The notes: generated by a model from the letters alone, not told the origin. Numbered from the stretch's first letter, positions 4,805 through 40,442 are shown. The stretch is DNA of 64,000 bases from a virus (IMGVR_UViG_3300025156_000001:1-64000), one strand, 5' to 3'. A program made the numbers and translations.

Positions 4805-5680
4805 CTATATATCTCTTTCTATATTGAAGTCGAGTATATCGAATGTCCCATTCCTTATCTTTTTCCCGATGGAGAAAGCCTTCTTTAGCCTACTGCCGAC
4901 CTTTTTACTCCCAATATTTATATCCCTTATAGTATTACTACAACCATACTTTGGGATGTTATTTCCTTCAATCGCATACTCGAAAAACGTATGTTGGCCT
5001 GGCGCATTACCCTTTGTGATTGCATCTAATCTTACGATGTGTGCTGGGATAAGACTCTCGTCCACACCCCCATCATCATCTACATCATCACCGATAATAT
5101 CGACAAGTCTAAAGTAATGGTGGCTTCTATCAGATAGTCTCCTTACAAATGATAAAGAGATGGCAGTAAGCGGGTGAATACCCTTATTTACAAGATGGGC
5201 AACCATCCTAACCAAATTCGGCTCGCCTATTATGGACCTTATATTACATAGGTATATATAGAATTGGGCCGGATACATTTCATCTACGTTGCGTATAACC
5301 ACAACGCCTTCATTCACAGCCATGTCTATATCTACGTCCCTCGGTATATGTCCGCATGATTGTAACGACCTCAAGTATGTATCTACCTCATCAGCCTTAA
5401 GGTCTACCTTACTCTCCTCCAAATCAAATACGAATACCAAAGCCGTATGTTTATTGTCTACCGGTTTGCCCTTTTCGATTAATATATCATCGATTACATG
5501 AGTATACGCATGAATAAAATCCCAAAAACAAGACACGGTTGTTATATTTTTCTTCAGTTGTTTGACATCCAATTCCTCGTCGTCCGCAATACGTATTACC
5601 TTATACGAGGAACTATCCACCTTTGAGAATACACTTCTCAATTTATGCACATCTAGCAGAGCCTTTCTTTCCCATGACAT
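4805..5680 (-). CDS. Hypothetical protein, 291 aa, first of the amidoligase cluster region
   Basis: No recognised domain. A mixed alpha/beta protein with a run of acidic residues near 205-215 (DDVDDDGG) and a basic C-terminal segment. It is the last leftward gene of the tightly spaced set 4805-9742, where gaps are 2-11 bases, so it may share a pathway with the ATP-grasp, amidotransferase and ligase genes upstream. That link is positional inference. Confidence 0.65.
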   Translation of the reverse strand: MSWERKALLDVHKLRSVFSKVDSSSYKVIRIADDEELDVKQLKKNITTVSCFWDFIHAYTHVIDDILIEKGKPVDNKHTALVFVFDLEESKVDLKADEVDTYLRSLQSCGHIPRDVDIDMAVNEGVVVIRNVDEMYPAQFYIYLCNIRSIIGEPNLVRMVAHLVNKGIHPLTAISLSFVRRLSDRSHHYFRLVDIIGDDVDDDGGVDESLIPAHIVRLDAITKGNAPGQHTFFEYAIEGNNIPKYGCSNTIRDINIGSKKVGSRLKKAFSIGKKIRNGTFDILDFNIERDI

Positions 5681-6541: not shown

Positions 6542-7339
6542 TTAATCACCATCATTCTCAATTCCATTAGGCCAAAGGGTAGATACCATATGGGATACCA
6601 CTATCGGCAATGAATATTCACCGAGCGTAGGTGCTGTATTACACTCGATGACATATACCTCGCCGTCTTTAGTTTCCAGTATATCTACTGCCCCGAAGTC
6701 CAGCCCAAGTGCCTTAACACTATCTATTGCTAAATGTATCGCCCCTAAAGTTGATAGGGTTATATCCTTTATCTGTTCCTGTCTGTACCCAAATTCCATA
6801 TTCCATCTGTAATTATCCGGCTCCTCAACCATAGGCTTCTTTTCATATACAATAAGGGCCTTATATGGGGTTGCAAACACCCTATACTCTCTTGCCTTAT
6901 CTATATATGCCATATAATATCCGTCATCTTCGGTATTATGCGTAGCCTCCCCGAGGTTCTCTATATACTCAAAATCCCTACCATGAGAGTGGTTTTTACC
7001 CCTCCACACTATAGGCGCATTTCTACCCAGGAAGTGTAGTAATGCCCTGGGGTTCTTATGGAATTGTGGTACATGCCAGACTATATCGCCACTATCCCTC
7101 AACACCTCCAAAGTCCTATACTTATCGGTGCTTCTGGCGATAGCCGACCTACTGTTGAATACCACGCCATTTACTTTTATACCCTTCCTAGATGTACCCC
7201 ATCTTATAATATTGGTATCTCTATTATTAGGTGGGTCCTCACTGAATGTGGTTGGCACACCCAGGATTTCAAACTCATCCCTTATTGCCCTAGCGGTTGC
7301 ACCACATTTCCTACTATACATGATATGTGTATCGAACAT
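6542..7339 (-). CDS. ATP-grasp ligase
   Basis: 265 residues with the ATP-grasp hallmarks: a RGKNHSHGRDFEY nucleotide-binding segment, EYRVFATPYKALIVYEKK, then GLDFGAVDIL and YVIECNTAP, where the E-x-N pair binds metal. These enzymes activate a carboxylate as acyl-phosphate and join it to an amine or thiol; the glutaminyl/peptide ligase branch is the closest in style. In phiEco32-like phages such a gene sits beside COOH-NH2 ligase, GATase II and GGCT, as here. The start at 7339 uses GGAGTGGTAAAA. Confidence 0.88.
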   Translation of the reverse strand: MFDTHIMYSRKCGATARAIRDEFEILGVPTTFSEDPPNNRDTNIIRWGTSRKGIKVNGVVFNSRSAIARSTDKYRTLEVLRDSGDIVWHVPQFHKNPRALLHFLGRNAPIVWRGKNHSHGRDFEYIENLGEATHNTEDDGYYMAYIDKAREYRVFATPYKALIVYEKKPMVEEPDNYRWNMEFGYRQEQIKDITLSTLGAIHLAIDSVKALGLDFGAVDILETKDGEVYVIECNTAPTLGEYSLPIVVSHMVSTLWPNGIENDGD

Positions 7340-7350
7340 TTTTACCACTC

Positions 7351-7668
7351 CTATGCAGTAACATACATACACTGCGTGGTATTTGGCCTTCTTTTGATAC
7401 GTATATGGACATTAATGTCCCCATACATTTCGGTGAACCATCCCATTTTTCTTATGGGTTGTTCATGATATGTCATAGTGAAATTATCTTCATTAAACTC
7501 CACTACAACGAAAGGTACACCGTTTTCCTTCTCCATATATACCTTTGTGGCTAGTATATCTACATCGGCTAGAGAGGCGGACGACATATACTTCCTTTTG
7601 GTGTTCTTTTCTATCCTCTTTTGCAACGTATCCATTATTTCCTTCATAGATTTTTGATTGTTCTGCAT
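7351..7668 (-). CDS. Hypothetical protein, 105 aa
   Basis: Predicted N-terminal helix rich in K/E followed by a beta-rich half (PFVVVEFNEDNFTMTY). No known family. It lies between the GATase II and ATP-grasp genes with gaps of 2 and 11 bases, so it may be an accessory factor of the pathway. Confidence 0.6.
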   Translation of the reverse strand: MQNNQKSMKEIMDTLQKRIEKNTKRKYMSSASLADVDILATKVYMEKENGVPFVVVEFNEDNFTMTYHEQPIRKMGWFTEMYGDINVHIRIKRRPNTTQCMYVTA

Positions 7669-7670
7669 AT

Positions 7671-8534
7671 TTAACCACCCCTTCTATTACATGTAGCCAA
7701 AATTATCAAGTTTGTCAGTTGACCTTTCAAACTCTTCTTTACTAGGCTTGTGGAGGTCCTCGATAATTTTCCTGACCGCTTTTGGTAGGTCCTCCAACTT
7801 TCCCGAGGGTTTGATTTATATGTATACGTAGAAGTATATTTTACGGTCCTTTTAGCCTTTTCGTATTTATCAATATTCGCAAGTATTTCCCAATCAGATA
7901 GTAGTTCACTACCTGGGACGGCCTTGACAACATACTTATCTATTATGTCATCGGTAAACTCCGATGCTATAATAGTCATATCGCCTATTTGCGCCACATC
8001 TAAATCTCTTGTTGTAGATGTTTTATATACCTCTAATATACCATCTTTCCTCAATGACAGAAACACACCAGTAAAATTGGTATTTATTGGTGCGCCCATA
8101 TTCAATACACCAAACCCATATAGAGATACCAGGTATGATGTTGCTTCACTATCTGATATTTCACCGCCTCTACGTATAACATATGGTATAAGTAGGGGTT
8201 TAAATATGGAAAGGTCTGATGTTGTTGTCCCATTATGACATAGTATCTGCTCTCCATTATTAAACGGTTGGCAGTTTTCATCTGTCTTTGGTGCCACCGT
8301 TTTTATACGGGTATGGAATAAGAAGGCACCATTATCCCATTTGGTTTTGACAGCCTTTTCTACCAATTCCTCTACCGTTTTCTCAACGCCTTTGATGACC
8401 AACGGTTCACCTTTTACCCAACCACCTATACCATTTCCGTGCCCACCTTTAGCGTCCTCAAGATGCTTAAACAAGTCCACAAGAAACTCCTTATCCTTCT
8501 TCTTTACGCCTTTGACGAAAGCCAATCTACACAA
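7671..8534 (-). CDS. Class II glutamine amidotransferase (Ntn hydrolase)
   Basis: This family uses an N-terminal Cys as nucleophile after Met removal. The only start that gives Met-Cys is the TTG at 8534 (TTG-TGT), and GTGGTGGTAAAA lies just before it. Other hallmarks: FHTR with His74 and Arg76, QPF...LCHNG with HNG at 100-102, and SDSE at 127-130. The enzyme would release ammonia from glutamine or hydrolyse a gamma-glutamyl amide. It lies two bases downstream of COOH-NH2 ligase 1. The C-terminal 60 residues are rich in S/K/R and do not belong to the core. Confidence 0.88.
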   Translation of the reverse strand: MCRLAFVKGVKKKDKEFLVDLFKHLEDAKGGHGNGIGGWVKGEPLVIKGVEKTVEELVEKAVKTKWDNGAFLFHTRIKTVAPKTDENCQPFNNGEQILCHNGTTTSDLSIFKPLLIPYVIRRGGEISDSEATSYLVSLYGFGVLNMGAPINTNFTGVFLSLRKDGILEVYKTSTTRDLDVAQIGDMTIIASEFTDDIIDKYVVKAVPGSELLSDWEILANIDKYEKAKRTVKYTSTYTYKSNPRESWRTYQKRSGKLSRTSTSLVKKSLKGQLTNLIILATCNRRGG

Positions 8535-8536
8535 TT

Positions 8537-9742
8537 TTACCACCACATTACAGGCAAGTATTTATCCGAATGTGAGGACATAATATCACTTATATCATTC
8601 ACAATCGTGTTGATTGCCCCCTTTTCCTTTCTGATATGGATTGGTATACCAACAACAACACCTATGGACGGGGACAATTTTTCGTATCTCCCCCAACGTC
8701 CATGCTTCACTGTATACCCTTTCCGTTTTAGGTAGGTAATGACATCCTTACAGATAGGCCCGCTATCTTCATCGGACCACACCCATAAGTCCCTACCATG
8801 TTTGCGACCAGACCCATATATATATATGTCGCCTATACCCTTCTTCTTGATACTGGTAACATCTATATCCAGGCCACTTTCTTTACCCATATATATGTTA
8901 ACCGTATTGGACTTCGGCTTGATACCCCATGAAACGAATATGTTTCTTGTAGTATCCATAGCCGTTCTCCTTCTTGTAACGTTTGATGCGAAGTGTAGGT
9001 ATCTTCCAACCTCACTATATCCATCCAACGTTGTAAACCAATTGAAGATTTCATTTATGATATTATATACATCCGTATATACGGCTTTGTTATTCCCCGA
9101 CCACCGTCTATTACCACGGTCGTTCCTTTCATTCCTAAATAGCGTATTACGTTCATATATATCTATCAATCTCCCTATTCTTTTATCGCCTTTAACTTTA
9201 TCCCAATTACGAATCATAATCCACGCAATAGATAAGTATGCACCAGTCCATATTGGGCTTGACAACCAACTATATGGTGTTCTTGTTTCAAACCCGTGAT
9301 GCTTCACCCTAAAGTCGAATGGCCCCCCATACTTCCCGACTTTAAGCCTATCTATAAAGTCTTCCCCACCTGTCATCCAGTTGAAGGAAAACAATACGGC
9401 ACCAAGACTTCTTGCCTTTTCATCTATCTCGCTATCGGCGGATATATGTATATGCCCACCTATTGGATGTCCAGTTGGTGCACCACCACCACGTAGCCTT
9501 ATAGAACTGCCCAGGAAATCCTGGATTTTACATATTGTATCCATAAGTTCCTGAATACACCCTCTCATATTTTCCATGTGTTCTTCAACACTTTCGGATG
9601 GGTCGGGCCTAAACTCTATAGGTACCTGCGCACTATCACTGCCGACAGATATACCAGTAAAGTAGTCTTGTCCAGTTACACGACTACCATCAACAAATAG
9701 TACAGCTTCGGGGTCAGACCCTATAAGAAAATCCTGTGTCAT
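8537..9742 (-). CDS. phiEco32-like COOH-NH2 ligase 1 (amidoligase)
   Basis: 401 residues, the longest of three ligases. It has GSDPEA at 8-13, the phage-type PIEFRP segment, GGHIHIS at 95-101 and HGFETRTP at 149-156. These are landmarks of the glutamine-synthetase-fold COOH-NH2 ligase type 2 family, proposed to join amines to carboxyl groups of peptides or proteins with ATP. The start at 9742 is set by GGAGTGATAACA. The C-terminal third goes beyond the common core. It probably works with the adjacent GATase II and ATP-grasp proteins. Confidence 0.9.
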   Translation of the reverse strand: MTQDFLIGSDPEAVLFVDGSRVTGQDYFTGISVGSDSAQVPIEFRPDPSESVEEHMENMRGCIQELMDTICKIQDFLGSSIRLRGGGAPTGHPIGGHIHISADSEIDEKARSLGAVLFSFNWMTGGEDFIDRLKVGKYGGPFDFRVKHHGFETRTPYSWLSSPIWTGAYLSIAWIMIRNWDKVKGDKRIGRLIDIYERNTLFRNERNDRGNRRWSGNNKAVYTDVYNIINEIFNWFTTLDGYSEVGRYLHFASNVTRRRTAMDTTRNIFVSWGIKPKSNTVNIYMGKESGLDIDVTSIKKKGIGDIYIYGSGRKHGRDLWVWSDEDSGPICKDVITYLKRKGYTVKHGRWGRYEKLSPSIGVVVGIPIHIRKEKGAINTIVNDISDIMSSHSDKYLPVMWW

Positions 9743-9747
9743 TGTTA

Positions 9748-9924
9748 TCACTCCTCAACACATTCCCAAAATGCCTTTGTAATTACATCCATACGTTTGG
9801 ATGTAACTACATTTATCATTTCGGATAGGTGGTTCTTTACAATATGGTCTGTCATTCTAACAGTAACCAAATATGGGTTAACACCCGCCTCTTTATGGCT
9901 ACAAAATGGGCATATATCATTCAT
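9748..9924 (-). CDS. C2H2-like zinc finger miniprotein
   Basis: 58 residues with CPFC near the N-terminus and HIVKNHL about 20 residues later, a C2H2 layout. GAGGTGTTTTCA supports the ATG at 9924. It could bind DNA or RNA; its place in the modification cluster is unexplained. Confidence 0.65.
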   Translation of the reverse strand: MNDICPFCSHKEAGVNPYLVTVRMTDHIVKNHLSEMINVVTSKRMDVITKAFWECVEE

Positions 9925-10063
9925 TGAAAACACCTCTTATCAGCACATTAGCCTTTGTCTTTCTGCCGTGCTTTTCCACAGTAGCATATATATGGGCTTT
10001 AGCCAATATTTCAACGATGTCCTCTGCTATTTCGACATCCAGTTTACTGTATTTTACCTTCAT
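9917..10063 (-). CDS. Hypothetical protein, 48 aa
   Basis: A short K/E-rich helix-strand protein. The ATG at 10063 overlaps the TGA of the upstream GGCT-like gene (ATGA), and GGAGAAAGGTAT lies before it, indicating translational coupling. No family known. Confidence 0.55.
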   Translation of the reverse strand: MKVKYSKLDVEIAEDIVEILAKAHIYATVEKHGRKTKANVLIRGVFNE

Positions 10064-10449
10064 ATACCTTTCTCCTTCGCGTTTTTTAGCCATTCTATAT
10101 AGTCGGTGCATCTAATCATACTATATCTCGACGTTTTATAGTCCTGATAGAAGTTAAATGGGGCAAGTTTGTTGTTATCCAAAGTGGATGTAGTGGAAAC
10201 ATACATACCCAATGACGAGTAGAATTTGTGTACATCTTCCGATATTTTACCGGTTATACTATACAATTCTACTACATATTCATCCGTGCCATATCCACTA
10301 TGGTATTTAAGTCTCGGTATACCATTAGCATCAATCATAAGTGTATATTGCCCAACATATTTTATCTTTCTAAATGGTGCCAAATCACCCAGATAATATC
10401 TATGTAATGGGCCGCCCTCTCTCAACAACCCATACTCTCCTAGTATCAT
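10060..10449 (-). CDS. GGCT-like protein 1, catalytic Glu apparently missing
   Basis: The N-terminal EYGLLREGGP matches the YGTLR loop of gamma-glutamylcyclotransferase-fold proteins, and VVELYSI fits the following core strand. Where the family has a catalytic Glu (Glu74 in GGCT-like protein 2), the aligned position is Ser79 in FYSSLGMY. It may therefore be a binding-only member or act differently. It follows paralogue P1 by four bases. The fold assignment is good; loss of activity is inference from a hand alignment. Confidence 0.7.
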   Translation of the reverse strand: MILGEYGLLREGGPLHRYYLGDLAPFRKIKYVGQYTLMIDANGIPRLKYHSGYGTDEYVVELYSITGKISEDVHKFYSSLGMYVSTTSTLDNNKLAPFNFYQDYKTSRYSMIRCTDYIEWLKNAKEKGI

Positions 10450-10453
10450 TGTA

Positions 10454-10942
10454 TTATACCCCCATAGTATGTTCCATTATACCAGTCCTAACCTCATCGA
10501 TTGGTAAATCAAACCCGTACTCGTATATTATACCATTTCTTATATCTTTCTTCATCTCACTTATTAGCCATTTGTCATCCAACGTATCGAAGAACGCTTT
10601 GTACATATTTTCGTTCGTCCATAGGAATACCTTTGGTAGTTTGGTGTTCTTGACACTACCCCTATCATTATTATCAATGATAAGCCTTTTTGAACTGCCA
10701 TCTGAATTTACACGATTGCCACCATACATAGGAACGTAAGTCAAAAATATAGTAGGAATTACAATACCATTTTTATAGTTATGCAGTATATTATTTCCTT
10801 TATATCCCACATATACTGGTGTGCTATCACCTATAAATCGTAGTCTAAATACTATATCTTTATCCATGCCAGTTATCTTTATATGTGATGGTAATATTAC
10901 TGCATCACTTTTATCATCAAGCAAATCTATCGTTGTCTTCAT
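10454..10942 (-). CDS. PxxE-GIxEH family paralogue P1
   Basis: The longest member (162 aa) and the only one apart from the main array. It ends PIDEVRTGIMEH plus four residues, and has the central LPKVFLW segment shared by all nine. The N-terminal 100 residues are the most divergent and lack the GH motif. It lies between GGCT-like protein 1 and a hypothetical gene downstream of ligase 2. AGGAGGTAACTAT is an excellent ribosome site. Function unknown; possible substrate or adaptor of the amidoligases. Confidence 0.75.
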   Translation of the reverse strand: MKTTIDLLDDKSDAVILPSHIKITGMDKDIVFRLRFIGDSTPVYVGYKGNNILHNYKNGIVIPTIFLTYVPMYGGNRVNSDGSSKRLIIDNNDRGSVKNTKLPKVFLWTNENMYKAFFDTLDDKWLISEMKKDIRNGIIYEYGFDLPIDEVRTGIMEHTMGV

Positions 10943-10946
10943 ATAG

Positions 10947-11225
10947 TTACCTCCTACTTTCTATATAGTCGAGGAACCTAATCACTATATTTATAGGGGT
11001 ATAATTCTGGAATTTTACTGTACCATTTCTCCTGTTCCAATAGCACCAGTACTTAATAGACTTATCCTTCTTAATTGGAACGGTAATAGTCATCTCTGTA
11101 TATTCTTCTTCAATATGTATTCCCCCATCTCCTCCCCCACTATCTACTATAACCATATCATCTATTGTATCCAATTGGCTAGTTATTGCCTTATCGCGTA
11201 TCTCTTTATCTCTTTTAGTGGGCAT
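10947..11225 (-). CDS. Hypothetical protein, 92 aa
   Basis: It has a charged N-terminus, a glycine-rich SGGGDGG linker near 30 and a beta-rich C-terminal half (TITVPIKKDK, YWCYWNRRN). No known family. It lies between ligase 2 and P1 with gaps of 9 and 4 bases. GGTGATTTC precedes the ATG. Confidence 0.6.
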   Translation of the reverse strand: MPTKRDKEIRDKAITSQLDTIDDMVIVDSGGGDGGIHIEEEYTEMTITVPIKKDKSIKYWCYWNRRNGTVKFQNYTPINIVIRFLDYIESRR

Positions 11226-11234
11226 GAAATCACC

Positions 11235-12122
11235 TTATAACCATATACTGTAAAGGTCATTATCATTATTTTCTGTACGAAGGGCATAACTTATTAGTTC
11301 CTTACTCTTATCACTAAAGATATTCCATTTGGATATTAATTCCCCAAGTAGGGATGTGGCATAGTGCGGGTCCTCTACCGCTTTCACTATAACACTTTCG
11401 CCAATACTCTTAACTATACCAGGCCCGTTTTGGGACATATGGTAGATGGCATCTTCCACCAACGAATAAACAAGTCTAGTGTAGAGAGGGCTTTTAAGCC
11501 AGTAGTTTGATAGAGTGCGGTATTCTACCCCATAAGATGTCTTACGGAAACAACCGGCCCTACCGTATAATTTCCTCCGTTCCGTTGCATCCTTCGAGTT
11601 ATCTATAACGGATGATACGACACCCAAGAATAGGTCTAATACCTTTATAAATTGCATTGAATCGTAATGGTCCAAAAGGAATAAGGTATCGGGGTCATCA
11701 TCAAATCCTATATGTATATGGCCGCCACAACTCCTAAAGGTTGGGAAATCTTCTGGACTAGGTGGTTCGTTGGTCATACCTGTATATGCGGACAGGTCTG
11801 GAGAGCACCCAAACAGTTTTGCCTCTGGACTAGACACTTCCTCTATTGGGAAGTTTGCGGATGCCAGTACAACTGGTCTTATGCTATTATCAAGTCTATC
11901 ATGTAATAGGTGGACCGTATCTCTTACGGCTTTAACCCATTCATTTTCATTATGGGCTGGCGGTGTGCCAAACTCGGCGCATACATTATCCCATTGTATC
12001 ATCCCACCATTAGGTAGTTCAACGGGTTTTTCTTTTGTCCCATTTATATATGGTATCGCAGATACCAATCTACCCCTTTTTGCGACAAATACTTCTGGGT
12101 CGCATCCTATTGTAAATTTCAT
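11235..12122 (-). CDS. phiEco32-like COOH-NH2 ligase 2 (amidoligase)
   Basis: 295 residues, about the usual family length. Motifs: IGCDPEVF at 5-12, CAEFGTPP near 48-55, GGHIHIG at 133-139 and GVEYRTLSN at 198-206. It is the most canonical of the three ligases. It is followed five bases upstream by the nine-paralogue array, so the array products are plausible partners or substrates. The reaction expected for the family is ATP-dependent amide bond formation at a carboxylate; the actual substrates are unknown. Confidence 0.92.
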   Translation of the reverse strand: MKFTIGCDPEVFVAKRGRLVSAIPYINGTKEKPVELPNGGMIQWDNVCAEFGTPPAHNENEWVKAVRDTVHLLHDRLDNSIRPVVLASANFPIEEVSSPEAKLFGCSPDLSAYTGMTNEPPSPEDFPTFRSCGGHIHIGFDDDPDTLFLLDHYDSMQFIKVLDLFLGVVSSVIDNSKDATERRKLYGRAGCFRKTSYGVEYRTLSNYWLKSPLYTRLVYSLVEDAIYHMSQNGPGIVKSIGESVIVKAVEDPHYATSLLGELISKWNIFSDKSKELISYALRTENNDNDLYSIWL

Positions 12123-12126
12123 TTAA

Positions 12127-12540
12127 TCACCCATTGTAATATATATCTGTGATGTGTTCGATTATACCAGTTTCAAGCTCGTTCTCCGGCATACCCCCCA
12201 GCGTAGTTATATGTAGTGTTCCCTTTAGGTAGTCAATCGTAAAGCCATTTGATTTATATGAGGATGCCACCCTCCTTACATCATACGTATGAAACATGTT
12301 CCAGAATGTACGTGGTACTCTCATGTTATTTTCTGCGAAGGCATTTTCTAAAGCCCTACACGGGTGGGCTTCATGGCCCATATATTTTACGGCGATACGT
12401 GGCGACCCTGGTAGGTCTCTACGTATATACTCCCCATTTACAAGCGGGTATAATATCATCCGCCCATCTGTTTTCTCTTTAACTATTTTTAAACCTGGTA
12501 TCTCCGTATAGATAACATCAGGCAGAATATTAATATCCAT
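12127..12540 (-). CDS. PxxE-GIxEH family paralogue P2
   Basis: 137 residues. Family landmarks: IAVKYMGH (GH motif), VPRTFW, an SSYK segment, and the C-terminal PENELETGIIEH with an 8-residue tail. The start at 12540 uses GGGGTGAACCAC and overlaps the end of P3 by 11 bases. Function unknown. Confidence 0.75.
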   Translation of the reverse strand: MDINILPDVIYTEIPGLKIVKEKTDGRMILYPLVNGEYIRRDLPGSPRIAVKYMGHEAHPCRALENAFAENNMRVPRTFWNMFHTYDVRRVASSYKSNGFTIDYLKGTLHITTLGGMPENELETGIIEHITDIYYNG

Positions 12541-12961
12541 GTGGTTCACCCCTATAATCACTCTTGTCATACGGTATATCTGTATGCTCGTGTATTCCAG
12601 AATTCATCTCATCTTTTGGGATTTTGTTATTAAACACCGCATACAATCTCTCCTCCAGAAACTTCCTGTTGAAACGCGGCGCCCTATATGACAATGCGCA
12701 CATCTTTGCACATTCCGTATTGTTAATATAGTAGAATGCTCCTGGTACATACCCATCCTTACCAAATAACGTTTCTATGGTTTTTGAACCTCTAGCCTGA
12801 TGTCCACCATAGTGTATTGCTATTGGGATACCCCACTCCCTACGTATAATTATACTATTTACACATGGTAAAAGTAGTGTTTTTCCATAAACCTCACGTT
12901 TTTCTATTGTAACGTTAGGTATCAACGTTGGGATAACACTCGGTAGCTTCGATAAATCCAT
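12530..12961 (-). CDS. PxxE-GIxEH family paralogue P3
   Basis: 143 residues with PIAIHYGGH, VPGAFYY, a CALSYR segment and PKDEMNSGIHEH. It has the longest tail after the signature (17 residues); part of that tail is encoded by the P2 start region, so overlap may have lengthened it. GGGGTGTATAG precedes the ATG. Confidence 0.75.
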   Translation of the reverse strand: MDLSKLPSVIPTLIPNVTIEKREVYGKTLLLPCVNSIIIRREWGIPIAIHYGGHQARGSKTIETLFGKDGYVPGAFYYINNTECAKMCALSYRAPRFNRKFLEERLYAVFNNKIPKDEMNSGIHEHTDIPYDKSDYRGEPHGY

Positions 12962-12979
12962 CTATACACCCCAATACCT

Positions 12980-13390
12980 TTAAGTTATATGCTCATATAT
13001 ACCGGTTTCGATTTCATTATTTGGTAGGTTACTATCAAGTATAATTAGCGCGCCGGCGGAAGATAAAAATGATATAGCTTCAGTATAATTCTTTGTATAA
13101 CTCCTTAATGTGGTAGTATTTTTAGATATCCATCGAAATACGTGTGGTACCCGCACCCCTGTTACAGCTATATGTTTTTGCCAGTTGTTAATATCACTCC
13201 CACCTGAATTGCTAACAAAAGTCAGGAAGAAATGGTTCTCCGGTACCCCGTGTCCCTCAAAATAGATACGTTTTCCATTCTTATCTCTTGCTACATATAT
13301 ATCGTAACCTGCCTGTTGTTCAAGAAAGAACGTAACTTCAGGTATTATACTTTTAAACCTGATATGGGTAGGCAATTTTGTGTCTATCAT
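12980..13390 (-). CDS. PxxE-GIxEH family paralogue P4
   Basis: 136 residues, ending PNNEIETGIYEH plus two residues. It has VPHVFRW and TLRSYT, but the GH motif is replaced by a longer insert (FVSNSGGS). GGTGATATAG precedes the ATG at 13390. Within the N-terminal third it shows a GHGVPENHFF variant of the usual PLxIxxxGH strand. Confidence 0.72.
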   Translation of the reverse strand: MIDTKLPTHIRFKSIIPEVTFFLEQQAGYDIYVARDKNGKRIYFEGHGVPENHFFLTFVSNSGGSDINNWQKHIAVTGVRVPHVFRWISKNTTTLRSYTKNYTEAISFLSSAGALIILDSNLPNNEIETGIYEHIT

Positions 13391-13395
13391 CTATA

Positions 13396-13770
13396 TCACC
13401 TATCTACGTGCTCCCATATACCAGTAGCGGATTCCTCTTCTGGTATAGTAATCTTACCAAACAGTTTTATTATTCGTGATAACAAATCGTCATCGGAGTA
13501 CGAACGGCTAGCTTCCTCCGCGCTATTGCCACCATATATACCCCAAAATATTTCCGGTAAATCTCCCCTATCGTGGAACCGATGGGATATAATGCTACCT
13601 CTCGCCCGATGTCCCTCTGTATGGATAGCAAGTGGCACATTATCATAGAGGCACCTTTCACCGTCCACATACACAATTAAAAGTTCGTGCCCATACATTG
13701 TTTCTTTATGTAGCTCCACGCCAGGCATCTTTGATGATGCTATTATATCTGGATACCCATCTAAATACAA
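13396..13770 (-). CDS. PxxE-GIxEH family paralogue P5
   Basis: About 124 residues. It is closest to P6: both have PGxELHKETMYG in the N-terminal part. Other landmarks are PLAIHTEGH, LPEIFW, ASRSYS and PEEESATGIWEH plus three residues. The TTG at 13770 aligns best with the P6 N-terminus and avoids overlap; a GTG at 13800 is the alternative. Confidence 0.72.
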   Translation of the reverse strand: MYLDGYPDIIASSKMPGVELHKETMYGHELLIVYVDGERCLYDNVPLAIHTEGHRARGSIISHRFHDRGDLPEIFWGIYGGNSAEEASRSYSDDDLLSRIIKLFGKITIPEEESATGIWEHVDR

Positions 13771-13783
13771 TATACCACATCCA

Positions 13784-14176
13784 TTATTTGTATTGAACAC
13801 GACAATTTATATGTTCGTATATACCTGTATTCTTTTCGTTTGTTGGCAATTCATACGCATCGAAATATTTTTGTAGTGAATCAACTAGCCTATTTATCCA
13901 CTTCTCCTCTAATGCCCCATCCAAATCTGCTTTTGACCTAACGTACCAAAACATTCGAGGCGGTAATATACCCTCTTTTTTATATTTTTTGTAAAAATCT
14001 ATTGGGCCCATATGCCCATATGGACATATAATTATGCTATTACCGGCATGAATACACGGTTTGTCCATATAGTAAACACGTAGGACCTTGGCCCCATACA
14101 TTGTTTCTTTATGTAGTTCTAGCCCAGGTATATGTTTCGATACAAGTATATCCGGTACTTTGTCTGCCCACATCAT
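13784..14176 (-). CDS. PxxE-GIxEH family paralogue P6
   Basis: 130 residues. It has IPGLELHKETMYG in common with P5, then ICPYGH, PPRMFWYV and PTNEKNTGIYEH with an 8-residue tail. The ATG at 14176 follows GGTGTTTAAT and the stop of GGCT-like protein 2; an ATG at 14188 overlapping that stop is possible. Confidence 0.74.
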   Translation of the reverse strand: MMWADKVPDILVSKHIPGLELHKETMYGAKVLRVYYMDKPCIHAGNSIIICPYGHMGPIDFYKKYKKEGILPPRMFWYVRSKADLDGALEEKWINRLVDSLQKYFDAYELPTNEKNTGIYEHINCRVQYK

Positions 14177-14177
14177 A

Positions 14178-14543
14178 TTAAACACCATTGTATTCCGCGA
14201 TATAATCGCCACTTTTTATTATGGGATAGGTTTTATTTATCGCCCTCTCTCTTGCCCATACCCATATATCGGCTTTACCGACAGGTGTTTCTATCTCCTC
14301 TTTGTGGTATCCAGCACCCAACTCCATAATATCTATAGAGTTGTATGTGCTATCCGGCACATCATATACCTCTATCTTGACATCCCTCATATTGTTGTCG
14401 TTTACAAGTGCGGGATATGAATATGGTAGTACCATTATATAAGGTAATGGCACAAACCCACTGAAAAGTGGCTTACCTATAGACTTCCTATAATTATATC
14501 CACCCTCTCGGAGGGTGCCGTACACCGCTATTCTCTTTACCAT
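14178..14543 (-). CDS. Gamma-glutamylcyclotransferase-like protein 2 (GGCT fold)
   Basis: 121 residues with the canonical VYGTLREGG at 7-15, the YPALV segment, VYDVPDS and DIMELGAGY, in which Glu74 fits the catalytic Glu of the family. GGCT enzymes cleave gamma-glutamyl amines or dipeptides to release 5-oxoproline; phage members travel with amidoligases. It sits inside the paralogue array, between P6 and P7. It could reverse or trim the modification made by the ligases. GGTGATATAA precedes the ATG. Confidence 0.88.
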   Translation of the reverse strand: MVKRIAVYGTLREGGYNYRKSIGKPLFSGFVPLPYIMVLPYSYPALVNDNNMRDVKIEVYDVPDSTYNSIDIMELGAGYHKEEIETPVGKADIWVWARERAINKTYPIIKSGDYIAEYNGV

Positions 14544-14554
14544 TTATATCACCT

Positions 14555-14929
14555 TTACTCTATATGCTCATATATCATGGTTTCAATCTCTTTTTGGGGT
14601 AGTTCGAATGTACCCATATACATTTTAATTTTATCCATAGTGTAGGAAAAAAGACACTCAAGTGCTTCATTTATATCTCCAACATAATAGAATATAGCAG
14701 GTATACTAATTGGTGCGCCACAGCCACTTGAATAAAACCTTTTAACAGCTTCAGTTGGCCCAGAATGTCCATCGAAATTTATACATAATGGATTTCCAGT
14801 TCTAACACTAGATTGTGGTGAACCGTCTAGGAATACTCTTAATAATGGCTGGTTCTGTATAAGTTGTTTCCTTGCAGATAACCTATGGCATGTGCCTTTT
14901 ATAAATAAGATTTCAGGTATGTCTTTCAC
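14555..14929 (-). CDS. PxxE-GIxEH family paralogue P7
   Basis: 124 residues from a GTG start at 14929, chosen because GGAGTGGTACC lies just before it. Landmarks: PLCINFDGH, IPAIFYYV, CLFSYT and PQKEIETMIYEH plus two residues. It is the only copy with Met in place of Gly in the signature. A longer frame from 14950 is possible. Confidence 0.73.
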   Translation of the reverse strand: MKDIPEILFIKGTCHRLSARKQLIQNQPLLRVFLDGSPQSSVRTGNPLCINFDGHSGPTEAVKRFYSSGCGAPISIPAIFYYVGDINEALECLFSYTMDKIKMYMGTFELPQKEIETMIYEHIE

Positions 14930-15338
14930 GGTACCACTCCATATGCTCATGAATACCAGTGTTTTCCTCTTCTACCGGTAAATTATATAATTGAAGATAG
15001 TCTTTCATAACCCTTTTTGAATACGAGCGCCTGCATAGTATGGCGTCTCCACCATCAAATACGTAGTAAAATATATATGGTATACTCTTCTTCCTGTTCA
15101 AATAGTATGTGAAAACATCCGGTGTTACATGGTCGTGCCCATTACTAGATAGCGCAATGCATAATGGCCTACCGGTTTCACTGCTATTTTGTGGTACACC
15201 ATTGAGGTACACCCTATATACATCATGCCCACAGATATTTTCTAATACACCTATTAATTCCTCCCCATCTATGCGGACAATTTCTGGCAACTCAAATTTA
15301 ACGATACTATAACCCCCATTGTTATTCGATGTGCTCAT
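14913..15338 (-). CDS. PxxE-GIxEH family paralogue P8
   Basis: 141 residues. It has PLCIALSSNGHDH, IPYIFYYV, CRRSYS and PVEEENTGIHEH with a 9-residue tail that overlaps the P7 start. The ATG at 15338 follows AGGTATAT and overlaps the end of P9 by 17 bases. With P7 and P9 it forms the most closely similar subgroup (shared PLCI/L and YYV). Confidence 0.72.
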   Translation of the reverse strand: MSTSNNNGGYSIVKFELPEIVRIDGEELIGVLENICGHDVYRVYLNGVPQNSSETGRPLCIALSSNGHDHVTPDVFTYYLNRKKSIPYIFYYVFDGGDAILCRRSYSKRVMKDYLQLYNLPVEEENTGIHEHMEWYRERHT

Positions 15339-15666
15339 ATATACCTGATACCATTTCTTCATATGGCACATTTTGTGGTATATATTTTTTGATATTGTGC
15401 ATTAAATACGTACTGTTGCAAACTAACGCATCCCCTTTATCATAGACATAAAAGAATATCCTAGGTGGGTCTTGTTCTATGGAACGGTATGCTATAAACC
15501 CCCCATACCCACAATTATCGTGCCCGTTAAACTTTAGGCACAACGGCATTGGGTATGATGCGAGTTCGCCGTCTACATATACCACATAAACGTATACCCC
15601 ATATAGTTTTTCGAGCCTGGCTATTATCCTATTCTTAACCAACTCCAAACACAATGGCAATTCCAT
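15322..15666 (-). CDS. PxxE-GIxEH family paralogue P9
   Basis: The shortest member (114 aa), so it marks the minimal unit. PLCLKFNGH, PPRIFFYV, CNSTYL and PYEEMVSGIYEH plus two residues are all present. It is first in the direction of transcription among P2-P9. GGAGGTATGAT precedes the ATG. Confidence 0.75.
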   Translation of the reverse strand: MELPLCLELVKNRIIARLEKLYGVYVYVVYVDGELASYPMPLCLKFNGHDNCGYGGFIAYRSIEQDPPRIFFYVYDKGDALVCNSTYLMHNIKKYIPQNVPYEEMVSGIYEHIE

Positions 15667-15944: not shown

Positions 15945-16676
15945 TTAGTATTTATATACATCGTCGATTACATCCTTCGCTATATTATGCGCCATTCTAC
16001 ATATTTTAAATAGATTTTTAAATGTCTTTGCGTTCATAGGCAGAGACCTATACTCAAAGCCGTGGTCCTTAAGCCTCCAGAACCCCTTCTGCCTATAAGA
16101 GTTTAGTGGCTCATCTTGTAGGAACGACTTTATATATGGGTGTTTCTCAAACCTCCTAACAAATTCTTCTATATCTCTTTTTGCCCATGAAAAGACAAAG
16201 TTTACCTCGGTGTTACCATCGATAAGCGTGGTCTTGTTTGCGGAGATGTGTATATGTAGCCCACCCCCCCTATATATATGCCCATCTATATCCCTATGAC
16301 GCATCTTATTGCCATATATATTACCACCAACTATCTCCTCTTTATAATTGGAATAGGAGGTAGCGCACCGTAGTACATTTTCCCAATATTCCTCTGTGGT
16401 AAAGGGGTATTCCTTTGTGGACATATGATACCCCTTATAGTCCCCTCCCAAATGCCTAAACCTATCCACCACATCATTATACTTCTCTACAAACGAACCG
16501 AAAGCAACACCAGGAGTACCGTAATCACTTCTTATCTCCGCTAGGAGGTCGAAGTTATCCCTCGGTATACTATATGGTGCCGGACACGGTTTGCCTTTTT
16601 TATCCAGTATGAGGAACTCACCCTCAATACCTATATCTATCCTATTCGGCTTCATGCCAAGTACACTTGTAGACAT
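15945..16676 (-). CDS. phiEco32-like COOH-NH2 ligase 3 (amidoligase)
   Basis: 243 residues, the shortest and most divergent ligase. It opens IGIEGEF at 15-21 in place of GxDPE, then EIRSDYGTP, GGLHIHIS at 138-145 and HGFEYRSLP at 205-213. Together these still fit the COOH-NH2 ligase fold; the first motif resembles the more general amidoligase EGE form. AAGGTGTATAAT sets the start at 16676. It closes the cluster on the upstream side and may have a different substrate from ligases 1 and 2. Confidence 0.85.
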   Translation of the reverse strand: MSTSVLGMKPNRIDIGIEGEFLILDKKGKPCPAPYSIPRDNFDLLAEIRSDYGTPGVAFGSFVEKYNDVVDRFRHLGGDYKGYHMSTKEYPFTTEEYWENVLRCATSYSNYKEEIVGGNIYGNKMRHRDIDGHIYRGGGLHIHISANKTTLIDGNTEVNFVFSWAKRDIEEFVRRFEKHPYIKSFLQDEPLNSYRQKGFWRLKDHGFEYRSLPMNAKTFKNLFKICRMAHNIAKDVIDDVYKY

Positions 16677-16692
16677 ATTATACACCTTCTGT

Positions 16693-17211
16693 TTATTCCG
16701 TAGGAATAATATCTTTGTAATTGTAATCGTAACGGTATCTATTTCTATATCGTTGGCTCTCATCCCACTCAACGGTATACCAATGTGTACCCCCGTCCCA
16801 ATTATACCCATTGTGTTCCGTTTTGGGGACCTCCACCACCGTACCTAATTGCTTCACTCCATTCTTATCGCGGTCTTGGTCCCACCATTCCCATGAGGGT
16901 CCCCTCTTTACCCTATCTCCAACCTTTAGAGTTGGTATATTCCTATTAAGAACAACCCCAATCAGGGGTTCTATAAGGTAACGTCTGTAAGAGATACCCT
17001 CCTTATTAATCGCATCATTTTCCACCTTAATATACCATTCTACAAATTCTACCCCCTTCTTTGTTGGTGGTACATTATCATCTATCCACCTTCTTTGTAC
17101 ATTGGAGCACGGATTATACCTCTTGAGAAACGAAGCGAATTTTTTGTAGTATGTACCATTATACTTCTCCAATTCTTTAACCTTATATCTATTTAACTTG
17201 TGCATATACAT
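16693..17211 (-). CDS. Protein with C-terminal MIB/HERC2-like domain
   Basis: 172 residues. Residues about 97-168 read VGDRVKRGPSWEWWDQDRD, later GTVVEV, TVEWDES and YRYDYNYKDI, matching the order and key residues of the MIB/HERC2 domain, an SH3-like fold found mainly in eukaryotic ubiquitin ligases. The N-terminal 95 residues are basic and unrecognised. It lies directly upstream of ligase 3. The domain may bind a peptide or a modified protein; no ligase domain is present. Confidence 0.7.
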   Translation of the reverse strand: MYMHKLNRYKVKELEKYNGTYYKKFASFLKRYNPCSNVQRRWIDDNVPPTKKGVEFVEWYIKVENDAINKEGISYRRYLIEPLIGVVLNRNIPTLKVGDRVKRGPSWEWWDQDRDKNGVKQLGTVVEVPKTEHNGYNWDGGTHWYTVEWDESQRYRNRYRYDYNYKDIIPTE

Positions 17212-34820: not shown

Positions 34821-35533
34821 TGTCGCCAGCGCACCTCCAACCCGCATCTGGCGGAAGTCCACCGAGTGGTAGTTATCTATACGCTGATTGGGAGGAGAGC
34901 GACGATAGTGATGGGAAGGACCTTTTTACAGAAATCAAGTCCACTACAAGCGGTTCTGATGGCTCTACTAAAGTAAATCGTTCGGCTGATTGGTCATCAC
35001 ATGGTTCCTGTGGGGCCAAACTATCTACTGCGTGGGCATATGTCCATACTATACTTGTGAAAGAGAACGGGACAGGTGGTTCGTCTGATTTTGACATACG
35101 GATGAATTTCCGACACAAAGCAAATCAGGACGAGAAGTTTGGACTGTGTTGGGGTGCTGATTGGGATTCTGACCCAGACTATGTTGGTGGCATACTCTTA
35201 TGGTATGATGATGACGGTAATGATTTATGGCTATCTGCATTTGAAACCGACGGCGTCCCAAAGTTCTATTCGGAGATAGATGTTGATAGTAATATAGGAG
35301 CGCTCACTGATGGCTCGCTATATAAACTTCATCTGAACATAACAATCTCTGGGGGGACTGCTACTATTACTGGAGAAATTCTTAACTCAACCGATACACA
35401 AATTGGTTCAGTATCGGGTTCTATCTCAACGTCAGGGATGACAGACGATATTAGTTTCTTGATATATTCTGAGGCATCGGGAGCAGGGAATGAGGCAATA
35501 GCGGATGAAATGGAGGTTGTAGTAAATGATTAG
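34814..35533 (+). CDS. Concanavalin-like beta-sandwich structural protein
   Basis: 239 residues. Alternating strands such as FDIRMNFRHKANQDEKFGLCWG, GGILLWYDDDGNDLWLSAF and YKLHLNITISGGTATITGEI look like a LamG/concanavalin jelly roll, often a glycan-binding module. It is in the head cluster between fibre-like proteins. Binding of host surface sugar is inference. Confidence 0.6.
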   Translation: MLMSPAHLQPASGGSPPSGSYLYADWEESDDSDGKDLFTEIKSTTSGSDGSTKVNRSADWSSHGSCGAKLSTAWAYVHTILVKENGTGGSSDFDIRMNFRHKANQDEKFGLCWGADWDSDPDYVGGILLWYDDDGNDLWLSAFETDGVPKFYSEIDVDSNIGALTDGSLYKLHLNITISGGTATITGEILNSTDTQIGSVSGSISTSGMTDDISFLIYSEASGAGNEAIADEMEVVVND

Positions 35534-38054
35534 ACGCATGTTCACATTTATCTTGACATTCCTACTTGCATTTGCGGTGATACAGGGTGTGGATTGCGAG
35601 ACGGTTGTACCTGAGAAGGAATCATTCAAGAAGAAGTGGCTAGAGAGACATAGAGAGCTTCACTTCGTTGAACGACTCAAATCACAGTTTGAACGTGAAC
35701 ATAAACGTTTCAAGGTAATATGGGGTTATATGACCGATGTAATATACATGGGTCCAAGGAACAAACCGCTACCCAAAAGGGTAAAAAGGTCTCTATTACT
35801 CAATAAGATAATCAGTAGGATTCCAATACTGGCAAAACTCAACCCAAAGGTTGGGCCGAATAAGTGGTGGAAGGTTAGATTCAAAGCAAGGAGATGGTGG
35901 TTCAAGCACAGGCTTCATGTCATGTATGTCTCCATTTTTGTACTCCTCCTTCTAATATCTACTGGGATACTCCCGCCTATTGCCGGGCTATTTGGAGCTT
36001 CATATTATCTTGATATGGACGCTGGTAGTAATGGTGATGGTTCACAGTCTTCACCATTCAACAACTGGACATCATTCAAGAACGCCATGCAGTCTAGTGG
36101 TCCACATGATGGATACATCAAGAGAGGGAACACACTGACTGGGAATAATAATATTTATCCGAGTGGGGATGGATGGACTATACAAGCGTATGGGACCGGA
36201 GATGCCCCTTTTATTACAGCAGGGTTTGGAACCAACAATGATGATTGGACTATCAGCGATATAGATATCGATGGGACTGGCGTGACAGGGTTCAGTTATA
36301 TTATCCAGAATGATAATGGCCAATCGATATGGAACGGGACTATTCATGATGTAGAAGTCACAAATACACGGTTTATGGCCTATAATAATGGTGGGGGTGG
36401 TTTCAGCATACACGATTTTACAATATCGGCAACCGGTAGTTGTATGAATTTTGAGGCCACGGCATCAAACAAGTTTGGCGATACGGACATTTACAACTTC
36501 ACAATAGATTGCAACGATTCTACTTCAAGCGATGGGATTTCCATACATACCGACCAGGATGGACAGACAGGTGGGACCGGATGGGCGATTTACAACGGTG
36601 AGATAAGTAACTGTGCAGAGAACGCCCTTGACCTAACCGCATGTGGGGGTGGGCAATTCTATCAATTGGAATTACATGATTGTTCTGGGCCATTGGTATA
36701 TGTATCGTATAGAAGCACGGGCGTCCATCTCCATCACAGCTATATATACGAGAGCAACAATAGTGGGATAGCGGATTACTCAAAGGGCCCCAACTATTAT
36801 TACAAGAATCTCATCAAGATAGATGCGTCAGCAGGTAATGGAGTATTCTATATTGCTGATTATGGTGGTTCCAATAAAGACGATGGATACATTGAAGGGA
36901 ATACCATTATTATAGATGGTGGGACGGCTTTCAAGTTTACAGAAGAGAATGGGGCGGCTATTACGGCCTTTCATATCAATAATAATATTATTACTACTAC
37001 AACAAGCTCACTATCAACAGTATATTCATTCTCCGGGTTCACATGGGGTGAAGTAACGGCGGCTAACAATATCTATTACAATCCAGCCGGAGACCCACAG
37101 ATGACACCCTCTGTGAATTGGACCACATGGACGGGGACGCATACGGAAGCGAGTAAGAACGACCCGCTTCTCGTCGATAGGGCTTTTACAACATACGGAG
37201 ATTATCGGGATGCATATCTCTCTGGTACATCATCGCCAGCATATGGTAACGCATCGTATTCAACAACTGGTACATATTATAAAAGAGACGGAACCTCTGT
37301 GACTGGGTTGGCAAGTGTAGATGACTATGCCGGCGATACTGGCGGTGGGGATATTGGATTTGATGAGTATGTAGATGCTGGTAATCCGCCCACTGTTACC
37401 ACCCAGTCTGCAACAAGTATCACATATCAATCTGCCACTCTTAATGGGAATATCACAGCGATAGGCGATAGTACCCCGACTCGAAGAGGCTTCTACGTGA
37501 ATACCTCCGAGAGTAAGACTGGGGCCGATGACGTCTATGAAACGGGGTCTTTCCCCACAGGTTCTTTCTCACTCGGAACGGGGGATACACTCGACCCCAA
37601 CACAACCTATTATTGCCTTGCTTATGCAACCAACACACAGGGTGAAAGCACAAATAATACCTGGGAGTCGTTTGTAACTCTAGACTATTCCCAGAGCTGT
37701 AGCTTAACAATGTCGGACGGTGATGATATAATACTATCGAATGGGGACGATTGGTCTGATATAAATATAACCGTTGGTGCAACAAGTACAATCACAACGA
37801 ATAACAATTCAGATAACGTGACGGTTGGCGATGGAACAAACAACGGAACACTTGGAACAGAAAACCATACCGGGACCGTGACTGGTGGTACATGGACCGA
37901 ATGTGGTGAGTATCTCGGCGGATTCTCAACACTTGAACCGGCTAGTTGTTCTGGCGGTAGTTCCCCATCAGGTGATGGCACATTTGATATGGATAACATT
38001 AATAAAAATAATATTTGTAAAGGACAAATGAATTTAAAAAGTGGAGGATATTAA
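35526..38054 (+). CDS. Membrane-anchored right-handed beta-helix protein
   Basis: 842 residues. A signal-like segment at 5-22, a basic stretch of 100 residues, and a second membrane segment at 131-157. The beta-helix then opens YYLDMDAGSNGDGSQSSPF, the typical start of pectate-lyase-like helices, and runs to about 610. An FN3-like domain follows (about 625-720), then a Thr/Asn-rich module with CGEYLGGFST...C at 793-808, shared with the tail protein at 49221. It may be a surface depolymerase or receptor-binding protein held in a membrane. Confidence 0.75.
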   Translation: MIRRMFTFILTFLLAFAVIQGVDCETVVPEKESFKKKWLERHRELHFVERLKSQFEREHKRFKVIWGYMTDVIYMGPRNKPLPKRVKRSLLLNKIISRIPILAKLNPKVGPNKWWKVRFKARRWWFKHRLHVMYVSIFVLLLLISTGILPPIAGLFGASYYLDMDAGSNGDGSQSSPFNNWTSFKNAMQSSGPHDGYIKRGNTLTGNNNIYPSGDGWTIQAYGTGDAPFITAGFGTNNDDWTISDIDIDGTGVTGFSYIIQNDNGQSIWNGTIHDVEVTNTRFMAYNNGGGGFSIHDFTISATGSCMNFEATASNKFGDTDIYNFTIDCNDSTSSDGISIHTDQDGQTGGTGWAIYNGEISNCAENALDLTACGGGQFYQLELHDCSGPLVYVSYRSTGVHLHHSYIYESNNSGIADYSKGPNYYYKNLIKIDASAGNGVFYIADYGGSNKDDGYIEGNTIIIDGGTAFKFTEENGAAITAFHINNNIITTTTSSLSTVYSFSGFTWGEVTAANNIYYNPAGDPQMTPSVNWTTWTGTHTEASKNDPLLVDRAFTTYGDYRDAYLSGTSSPAYGNASYSTTGTYYKRDGTSVTGLASVDDYAGDTGGGDIGFDEYVDAGNPPTVTTQSATSITYQSATLNGNITAIGDSTPTRRGFYVNTSESKTGADDVYETGSFPTGSFSLGTGDTLDPNTTYYCLAYATNTQGESTNNTWESFVTLDYSQSCSLTMSDGDDIILSNGDDWSDINITVGATSTITTNNNSDNVTVGDGTNNGTLGTENHTGTVTGGTWTECGEYLGGFSTLEPASCSGGSSPSGDGTFDMDNINKNNICKGQMNLKSGGY

Positions 38055-38926: not shown

Positions 38927-39441
38927 TGTCAACTATAAATACATTAATGGAACATATGAAAACGGCCTTAACAAGTGGTATAGATAGCTATGGCGCAATA
39001 GCCTCATCGAGCCCAACTTACGGCGGTACAGGTGATGGGGAGGATTTCGACGGCTTCGGGGTATTCCTTACTGGCCTCAACGATACTATAGACTTCTCCT
39101 CTATAACACTACCAGCCCTTTTGGTCTCTTTTGACTTGTTTCAATCTGGAGATAGAGTATTCGGCGATGAGCCATTGGGTATGTCAATATCCGTATCGCC
39201 AATAGTTAACGATTTCTATGGCTCTGCAATAGAAGGTACCCAGGTCATTGAGAATAAAGAGGCTGTAAATGTATATATAGATAGACTTAATGAATTTATG
39301 AAATACGTACAGTTCCCAGATGTAGTCCTTATAGCAAGGGATAACTCATCACCTATAAGTCCTGGTGGATTTGCACCAAACAACGACTTCTATGTTACGG
39401 GAACAGTTACATTAAATATAGAGTATATGGAGGATATATAA
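38926..39441 (+). CDS. Tail terminator/neck protein (putative)
   Basis: 171 residues, a one-base overlap with both neighbours. An N-terminal helix, a core of strands and a long loop fit tail-completion proteins that sit between connector and tube genes. Assignment by order. Confidence 0.55.
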   Translation: MSTINTLMEHMKTALTSGIDSYGAIASSSPTYGGTGDGEDFDGFGVFLTGLNDTIDFSSITLPALLVSFDLFQSGDRVFGDEPLGMSISVSPIVNDFYGSAIEGTQVIENKEAVNVYIDRLNEFMKYVQFPDVVLIARDNSSPISPGGFAPNNDFYVTGTVTLNIEYMEDI

Positions 39442-40442
39442 TGACTAGAGAGCCGGTACTAAGGTATAGCGTTGAGTTGAATGGGGTAAGAGTCCCTATT
39501 ACAACTACGATAAATTTCAATACAATTGGCAAAGTTATGGAGGAAGTACACTCATTAGAAGACCCATATACTAAAAGTATAGAGATTGTAGACAAGGTAT
39601 CTGGTACTATAACCTTTAAGGTTCCAGCCGGGAACTACTCAAATGACCCGCTTACATTTCTGGAGACGCTTGGTCATAGGGATATGAGTACGATATACAA
39701 TACTACAACTGAGTCGATAGAGATAACTGGTTCATATGGTTATACTGACCTCGGTGGTGGCGAGATATCGGAGCCAAAGATACCTATTGAAATTAGGCAG
39801 ACGGAAGCAACTGGTGGGACACCAATATCGAGTGGTGGAACATCGATGATAGCAATCCCATTCAAGATGCCTACAGATGAACTAACGAGTCTAAAAATGA
39901 AATGGAGAGAAGCAACTGATGGTGATGTAACATCATGCGATATAGAATTGTTTACAGATAATTCTGGTGAACCTGGCTCGAAGGTTACCAATAGTAATAC
40001 ACTGTCTCCGACGATTGACCCAGCGAATGGCGCGTCATATCTATCGGCAGAGTACGAGACTATAGATATATCAAATCTCCTCGGTACATCTACTACGACA
40101 ATTGGTACAAAATATTGGATTGTAATAACGGCAACAGATTCCGACAATCTATATGTATCCCACACTAGTAATAGGAATTACTACGATAGGGTAATGGGAT
40201 ACTCGGGCTCATGGGCATATATATCTAATGTGGAAAACTTCTGCTTCATACTTACTGGAACCCAGAGTCTTGGTGGGCACCATCTAAAGATAGTTGGTAC
40301 CACACAGAATGGTACGTATATACGTACATATGAACTTAATGGGTGTAGAATAGTTGCGAAACCGCCGTCCCCTTCACCGCAGAAGAGCACGGAGATTTCT
40401 TTCGACTTTACATCATATGACTATACGATAACGGAAACATAG
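39441..40442 (+). CDS. Tail tube protein 1 with inserted domain
   Basis: 333 residues. The first 110 and last 50 residues match the shorter protein at 40452: both end in a strand with L-x-G-C-R followed by P-x-PSPQ and a final D-rich strand. Residues about 115-280 are an extra beta-sandwich (FKMPTDELTSLKMKWREA, YWIVITATD), of the kind used as surface decoration. Suggests duplication and domain insertion in the tail tube. Confidence 0.7.
   Translation: MTREPVLRYSVELNGVRVPITTTINFNTIGKVMEEVHSLEDPYTKSIEIVDKVSGTITFKVPAGNYSNDPLTFLETLGHRDMSTIYNTTTESIEITGSYGYTDLGGGEISEPKIPIEIRQTEATGGTPISSGGTSMIAIPFKMPTDELTSLKMKWREATDGDVTSCDIELFTDNSGEPGSKVTNSNTLSPTIDPANGASYLSAEYETIDISNLLGTSTTTIGTKYWIVITATDSDNLYVSHTSNRNYYDRVMGYSGSWAYISNVENFCFILTGTQSLGGHHLKIVGTTQNGTYIRTYELNGCRIVAKPPSPSPQKSTEISFDFTSYDYTITET

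Follow-up and report, generated by a model that had tools for sequence, protein, structure and literature searches.

Nine paralogous small proteins with a common C-terminal signature lie within the amidoligase gene cluster of a virus

What might nine small proteins with diverged bodies and a common ending contribute to a viral cluster of amidoligase genes? This question is raised by IMGVR_UViG_3300025156_000001:1-64000, the 64,000-nucleotide stretch analyzed here (the window), which makes up the leading 64 kb of a 68,756-bp record from a tailed virus. Its minus strand carries, at 10454-10942 and 12127-15666, nine open reading frames (ORFs), P1 to P9, which an earlier sequence-only reading had described as paralogs ending in the same pattern and which we recovered at the same coordinates. 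Here, we show that the P proteins are true paralogs of one family and that their C-terminal signature is kept by selection at the protein level. A role as partners of the neighboring ligases is plausible, with binding and modification being putative.

A profile built from the nine sequences detected just these nine copies in the 68,756-bp record, with E values of 1e-28 to 1e-45. In leave-one-out searches with hidden Markov models (HMMs), eight copies found the ninth at E values of 1e-10 to 1e-21 when the signature was kept (2e-5 for P1). After the signature had been cut off, seven of the nine were still found at 6e-10 to 1e-14, P4 was marginal (0.006), and P1 was lost (0.33). Aligned end to end, P1 and P4 share 26% identity over 144 columns (E 5e-7 in a single comparison), and it is via P4 that P1 joins the family. 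The leave-one-out scores and this alignment therefore unite all nine proteins in one family. Within it, P1 and P4 make up a divergent branch, in which GG stands in place of the GH motif that is aligned in the other seven copies, the number given by the sequence-only reading. That reading had also assigned a central P-x-x-F-aromatic segment to all nine proteins; PxxF is indeed invariant, but the following residue is aromatic in only seven (Leu in P1, Arg in P4). Likewise, the strong divergence noted for the upstream parts is reflected in 19 to 39% identity to the reference row of the alignment, yet the bodies can still be aligned. The invariant columns are P, G, P, F, P, E, I, E, and H.

Conservation within the family is highest in the tail. 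PxxExx[TS][GM]IxEH is present without gaps in all nine proteins, Met replacing Gly in P7 only, and its last His is followed by 4, 8, 17, 2, 3, 8, 2, 9, and 2 residues in P1 to P9, respectively, which agrees with the claimed distance of 2 to 17 residues from the stop. P7 and P9 are the only copies ending in Glu. A six-frame search of the window returned exactly these nine hits, and no match occurred among 3.8 million residues translated in six frames from DNA of other amidoligase phages and control phages. At the DNA level, the pattern encoding the TG form was found six times in the window versus 0.00 expected (none in 100 shuffles). Among the 36 pairs of copies, the seven conserved signature codons differ 106 times synonymously and 22 times nonsynonymously, versus 12 synonymous and 157 nonsynonymous differences at the five variable codons. 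Since the conserved codons vary synonymously while the residues stay, the signature is under protein-level selection, bearing out what had been suspected.

P1 (10454..10942; 162 residues; signature PIDEVRTGIMEH), the divergent paralog, starts behind an AGGAGGT ribosome-binding site. It is followed on the map by P2 (12127..12570; PENELETGIIEH), P3 (12530..12961; 143 residues; PKDEMNSGIHEH), P4 (12980..13390; 136 residues; PNNEIETGIYEH), P5 (13396..13800; 134 residues; PEEESATGIWEH), P6 (13784..14212; PTNEKNTGIYEH), P7 (14555..14950; PQKEIETMIYEH), P8 (14913..15371; PVEEENTGIHEH), which is the best HMM match of the family, and P9 (15322..15666; 114 residues; PYEEMVSGIYEH), its minimal form. Judging from probable ribosome-binding sites, later starts are likelier for P2 (12540; 137 residues), P6 (14176; 130 residues), P7 (an alternative GTG at 14929), and P8 (15338; 141 residues), which would yield compact proteins, most of them starting near an LPxxI motif.

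An AlphaFold2 model of P8, computed from the nine sequences, reached moderate confidence, with a predicted local distance difference test score (pLDDT) of 72 and a predicted template modeling score of 0.66, and a model based on P9 reached a pLDDT of 51; hence, the fold is suggested only. The P8 model comprises an N-terminal hairpin sheet, two further strands, and helices; in the tail, the pLDDT drops below 50 and no structure is resolved. The family can thus be tentatively described as proteins of about 110 to 160 residues with an N-terminal LPxxI motif, a predicted β-hairpin sheet, a PxxF strand and helix, and the C-terminal PxxExx[TS]GIxEH tail. Foldseek comparison of the P8 model, at its moderate confidence, with the PDB and BFVD returned nothing below an E value of 0.1.

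Searches of Pfam, PHROGs, NCBIfam, PADLOC, and PDB sequences gave no significant match to the P family, in line with the earlier statement that no named family carries this signature, and neither HMM nor fold comparison placed the proteins in a known unrelated family. No homolog was found among GenBank phages, in the ORFs of the compared amidoligase loci and 50 whole records, or in IMG/VR scanned with P8 and with an alignment of P7 to P9, although these sets may leave out the near relatives of the virus; AL-A and AL-B, two ligases of the window described below, used as single proteins in the IMG/VR scan also yielded no relatives. Scanning IMG/VR with the signature pattern gave nine stretches, which were judged by eye to be chance matches; a genome scan with the same pattern gave at least 120, with no homolog among the matches listed, and double hits in Bacteroidales belonged to large unrelated proteins. 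No profile match supports an origin of the P family from gamma-glutamyl cyclotransferases (GGCTs). As far as these sequence comparisons reach, the P family appears to be new and lineage specific, with no homolog seen outside this virus.

In which genomic context do these genes occur? On the minus strand, the order is AL-C, P9, P8, P7, GGCT, P6 to P2, AL-B, a 92-residue protein, P1, a GGCT-like protein, AL-A, an amidotransferase, and an ATP-grasp ligase, so that the P genes are, as the sequence-only reading had it, woven into a set of amidoligase, ATP-grasp, and GGCT genes on one strand. AL-A (8537..9751) is a COOH-NH2 ligase matching Pfam PF14395 (E 1.8e-18), with the motifs GSDPE and GGHIHI. 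AL-B (11235..12122) is a COOH-NH2 ligase of the phiEco32/LUZ24 type (PF14395, 2.7e-13; phrog_3815, 1.3e-56), matching 313 GenBank phage records. AL-C (15945..16811) has no Pfam match and is a probable third COOH-NH2 ligase, given an E value of 6e-4 with an HMM of the AL-B family and the motifs GIEGE, GLHIHI, and HGFEYR. The ORF at 7671..8546 probably encodes a type II glutamine amidotransferase, as suggested by the motifs FHTRIKTVA, CHNGTT, and SDSE; it has no Pfam match. Type II amidotransferases are expected to carry a catalytic N-terminal Cys, and in this ORF, listed with a GTG start, translation from an internal TTG at 8534, with TGT as the next codon, would begin with Met-Cys. The RimK-like ATP-grasp ligase (6542..7372) matches phrog_2599 (E 2.1e-22) and, weakly, RimK/R2K Pfam families. 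The GGCT between P7 and P6 (14178..14543) matches PF06094 (E 5.5e-13) and phrog_2520 (3e-12), and the GGCT-like protein (10060..10449) was assigned by its motif YGLLREGG..H..YLG, with neither a Pfam nor a PHROG match. Separating P1 from AL-B, the unassigned 92-residue protein is encoded at 10947..11225.

This gene content can be compared with known clusters. According to Iyer et al. in 2009, the phiEco32/LUZ24-type cluster reportedly comprises a COOH-NH2 ligase, a second amidoligase, a type II glutamine amidotransferase, a RimK-like ATP-grasp ligase, and a GGCT. The same enzyme set lies on one strand in the window, with a ligase of the PF14395/phrog_3815 type, a RimK-like ATP-grasp ligase and a GGCT nearby on the same strand, and a probable type II amidotransferase; it is also the set of LUZ24, phiEco32-like phages, Privateer, CW02, and related phages. 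The window adds a probable third ligase, a second GGCT-like protein, and the nine P paralogs, but lacks the gp17-type companion, no such protein being detected in it with an iterated profile built on 60 sequences. Of about 91 amidoligase loci, 60 have a gp17-type protein directly after AL-B and about one-third do not; it is common but not strictly defining for the cluster. In the window, the 92-residue protein and P1 fill its position between AL-B and AL-A. Another, uncharacterized family, X, of about 225 to 325 residues, is represented by one to four copies in many viral amidoligase loci, for the most part immediately upstream of AL-B; examples are L033 (1891-9995, up to four copies), L042 (5728-10004), L050, L069, and L074. 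By profile comparison, P proteins are related neither to gp17 nor to the X family (hhalign probability of 0.1 in each case), and a likeness of window positions 4808-5680 to the X family, perceived by eye, was not supported. The P family is missing from the closest relatives of the ligases and therefore does not belong to amidoligase pathways in general.

Do other amidoligase phages possess small proteins with shared tails? Phage-specific common C termini were found on small proteins of four of them: LEEN in the Salinivibrio phage CW02 (L233, 2-10907), LENK in the Klebsiella phage VR7901 (L232, 21944-40048), F[KR]GN in L058, and LYEI in L080. Eight of nine LEEN genes of CW02 (hypergeometric P = 5e-4) and five of eight LENK genes of VR7901 (P = 0.014) lie inside the amidoligase cluster, these P values being optimistic since the cluster limits were set after the data had been seen. 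Like the P proteins, they are multicopy small proteins with a common tail, interleaved with genes of the amidoligase cluster. In contrast to the P proteins, they are shorter (about 60 to 97 residues), bear a different tail at the very C terminus, and often have this tail overlapping the next ribosome-binding site; many resemble KOW/SH3-type proteins on visual inspection, with no significant Pfam match. Part of the likeness among tails, above all for FKGN, stems from a fixed reading frame across the next gene's ribosome-binding site. Some of the CW02 and VR7901 copies, however, retain the tail residues with synonymous codons and without such a site, and the CW02 tails also keep a Pro further upstream. 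In a stop-anchored test, groups of four or more shared tails occurred in 6 of 95 amidoligase loci, representing four distinct phages, and in none of 3 phage, 58 bacterial, and 9 viral control loci; SIO1 and VpV262, in which the ligase is absent by HMM, had no shared-tail group of three or more. With such a count, shared tails are not a general rule of amidoligase phages, and their enrichment in amidoligase loci is suggestive only. Nevertheless, the tailed groups in CW02, VR7901, and the other phages make it more plausible that tailed small proteins and ligases are functionally linked.

How could such proteins act? We favor, tentatively, the reading that the P proteins are partners of the COOH-NH2 and ATP-grasp ligases, serving as acceptors, carriers, or adaptors recognized via their tail. 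Tandem duplication would have amplified the family inside a phage amidoligase operon, and the P genes would be cotranscribed with the ligase genes. The P proteins would bind the ligases, the shared tail being the piece recognized; the low model confidence of the tail and its top conservation in the family fit a linear recognition motif. As acceptors or carriers, they would take amino acids joined by the ligases, possibly at the side chain of a tail Glu by analogy with Pup or LysW. Alternatively, they might be adaptors presenting targets to the ligases, and could equally be adaptors for a modification of the cell wall against superinfection. The latter is the published guess for the function of the cluster (PMC10580990; PMC11945000), and the papers found name no established product of a phage amidoligase cluster but repeat the cell-wall guess of 2009.

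Both analogies are partial. The Pup ligase is a carboxylate-amine ligase that joins a small protein via its C-terminal Glu (PMC2588565). Like Pup with respect to PafA, the P proteins are small, bear a conserved Glu-containing tail, and adjoin ligases of the same broad kind; unlike Pup, a bihelical unit with a C-terminal GG[EQ], they lack this motif, have bodies predicted to be rich in β-strands, and are present in nine copies. LysW is a small amino group carrier with a conserved acidic C terminus used by a RimK-family ATP-grasp ligase. The P family likewise consists of small proteins near a RimK-like ATP-grasp ligase, but its alignment shows neither conserved zinc-binding Cys residues nor a LysW-type terminus.

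Several features argue for a partnership of P proteins and ligases: the shared strand and interleaved order of their genes, the protein-level conservation of the signature, the precedent of the Pup ligase, the presence of P1 in the place of the gp17-type companion, the multicopy X family beside AL-B in other viruses, and the interleaving of enzymes with multicopy tailed small proteins in other amidoligase phages. Other observations weigh against it. The LUZ24- and phiEco32-type clusters and the closest ligase relatives lack a P-like family, the tail is not at the extreme C terminus in most copies and shows neither GG[EQ] nor the LysW motif, 89 of 95 amidoligase loci are without a shared-tail group of at least four members, and many tails in such groups overlap the ribosome-binding site of the next gene. 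In addition, the P family is known from one virus only, which is also the sole basis for its linkage with ligase genes. Homologs far from amidoligase genes, which would speak against the proposed link, did not turn up, but then no homologs were found at all.

About equally likely, and thus likewise a possibility to be held with reserve, the P proteins may be an amplified accessory family of the phage, active in host takeover, antidefense, or similar processes and simply cotranscribed with the ligase genes, the tail serving their own folding or a host target. Early regions of phage genomes often contain arrays of small paralogs, and the lack of homologs, of conserved linkage elsewhere, and of the P family beside the closest ligase relatives fits this explanation, to which PADLOC and Pfam gave no lead in either direction. 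However, the P copies do not form one block but are spread among the pathway genes, P1 lying between two ligases and the GGCT between P7 and P6, and similar interleaving was seen in CW02, VR7901, and L080.

Rather improbable is a function as small enzymes, in which GH and the tail Glu or Glu-His would form a metal or catalytic site acting on a small molecule of the pathway. The invariant columns and the presence of GH in seven copies could be taken in its favor, but P1 and P4 lack the His of GH, the tail is of low confidence in the model, no enzyme fold was matched, and an enzyme present in nine copies would be unusual. A place of the P proteins in the virion, or another structural role, is very unlikely: multicopy families occur among virion proteins, but the P genes lie in the nonstructural, minus-strand part, apart from the plus-strand genes for terminase, portal, capsid, and tape measure proteins, and no structural family was matched. 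Least credible is an origin of the signature as a side effect of overlapping genes, in which the nucleotides at the junctions carry the next ribosome-binding site and start codon. The P8 start and an AGGT site do fall within the P9 tail codons, the listed ATG of P7 falls within the P8 tail, and many shared tails in CW02, VR7901, and L058 fall on a ribosome-binding site. However, the seven remaining P genes keep the signature with the next start outside its codons, residues further upstream (Pro and the first Glu) are fixed too, and the synonymous differences in the conserved codons largely refute such an origin for the window, where it concerns two junctions only.

Beyond the cluster, the virus possesses the plus-strand structural genes mentioned above and a family B DNA polymerase; terminase, polymerase, and primase revealed no close relatives. 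The polymerase is matched best, but too distantly to point to a host, by haloarchaeal tailed viruses and by a Pol II-like gene of Escherichia coli. In L011 (5448-7811, 3369-4445, and 4789-5292; record positions of about 57 to 62 kb), this polymerase lies beside a possible LigD-like primase-polymerase domain (weak match) and an unassigned small protein resembling a resolvase by eye. The structural half of the window contains two further paralogous pairs, one at 35526-38051 and 49221-52253 with a weak match to right-handed β-helix proteins and another at 39441-40439 and 40452-41081.

What is new here is an orphan protein family in an already known type of operon. A broader idea, which we regard as unlikely at present, is that phage amidoligase pathways might act on ribosomally made small acceptors, each lineage having its own amplified set with its own tail (TGIxEH, LEEN, or LENK), in a tagging or carrier system like that of Pup or LysW, in which many carriers could replace one another. 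If it is true that the ligases act on or through tailed small proteins, the question of the product of these pathways would become directly testable by mass spectrometry, and cultured phages with such tails, such as CW02, might serve as a test system.

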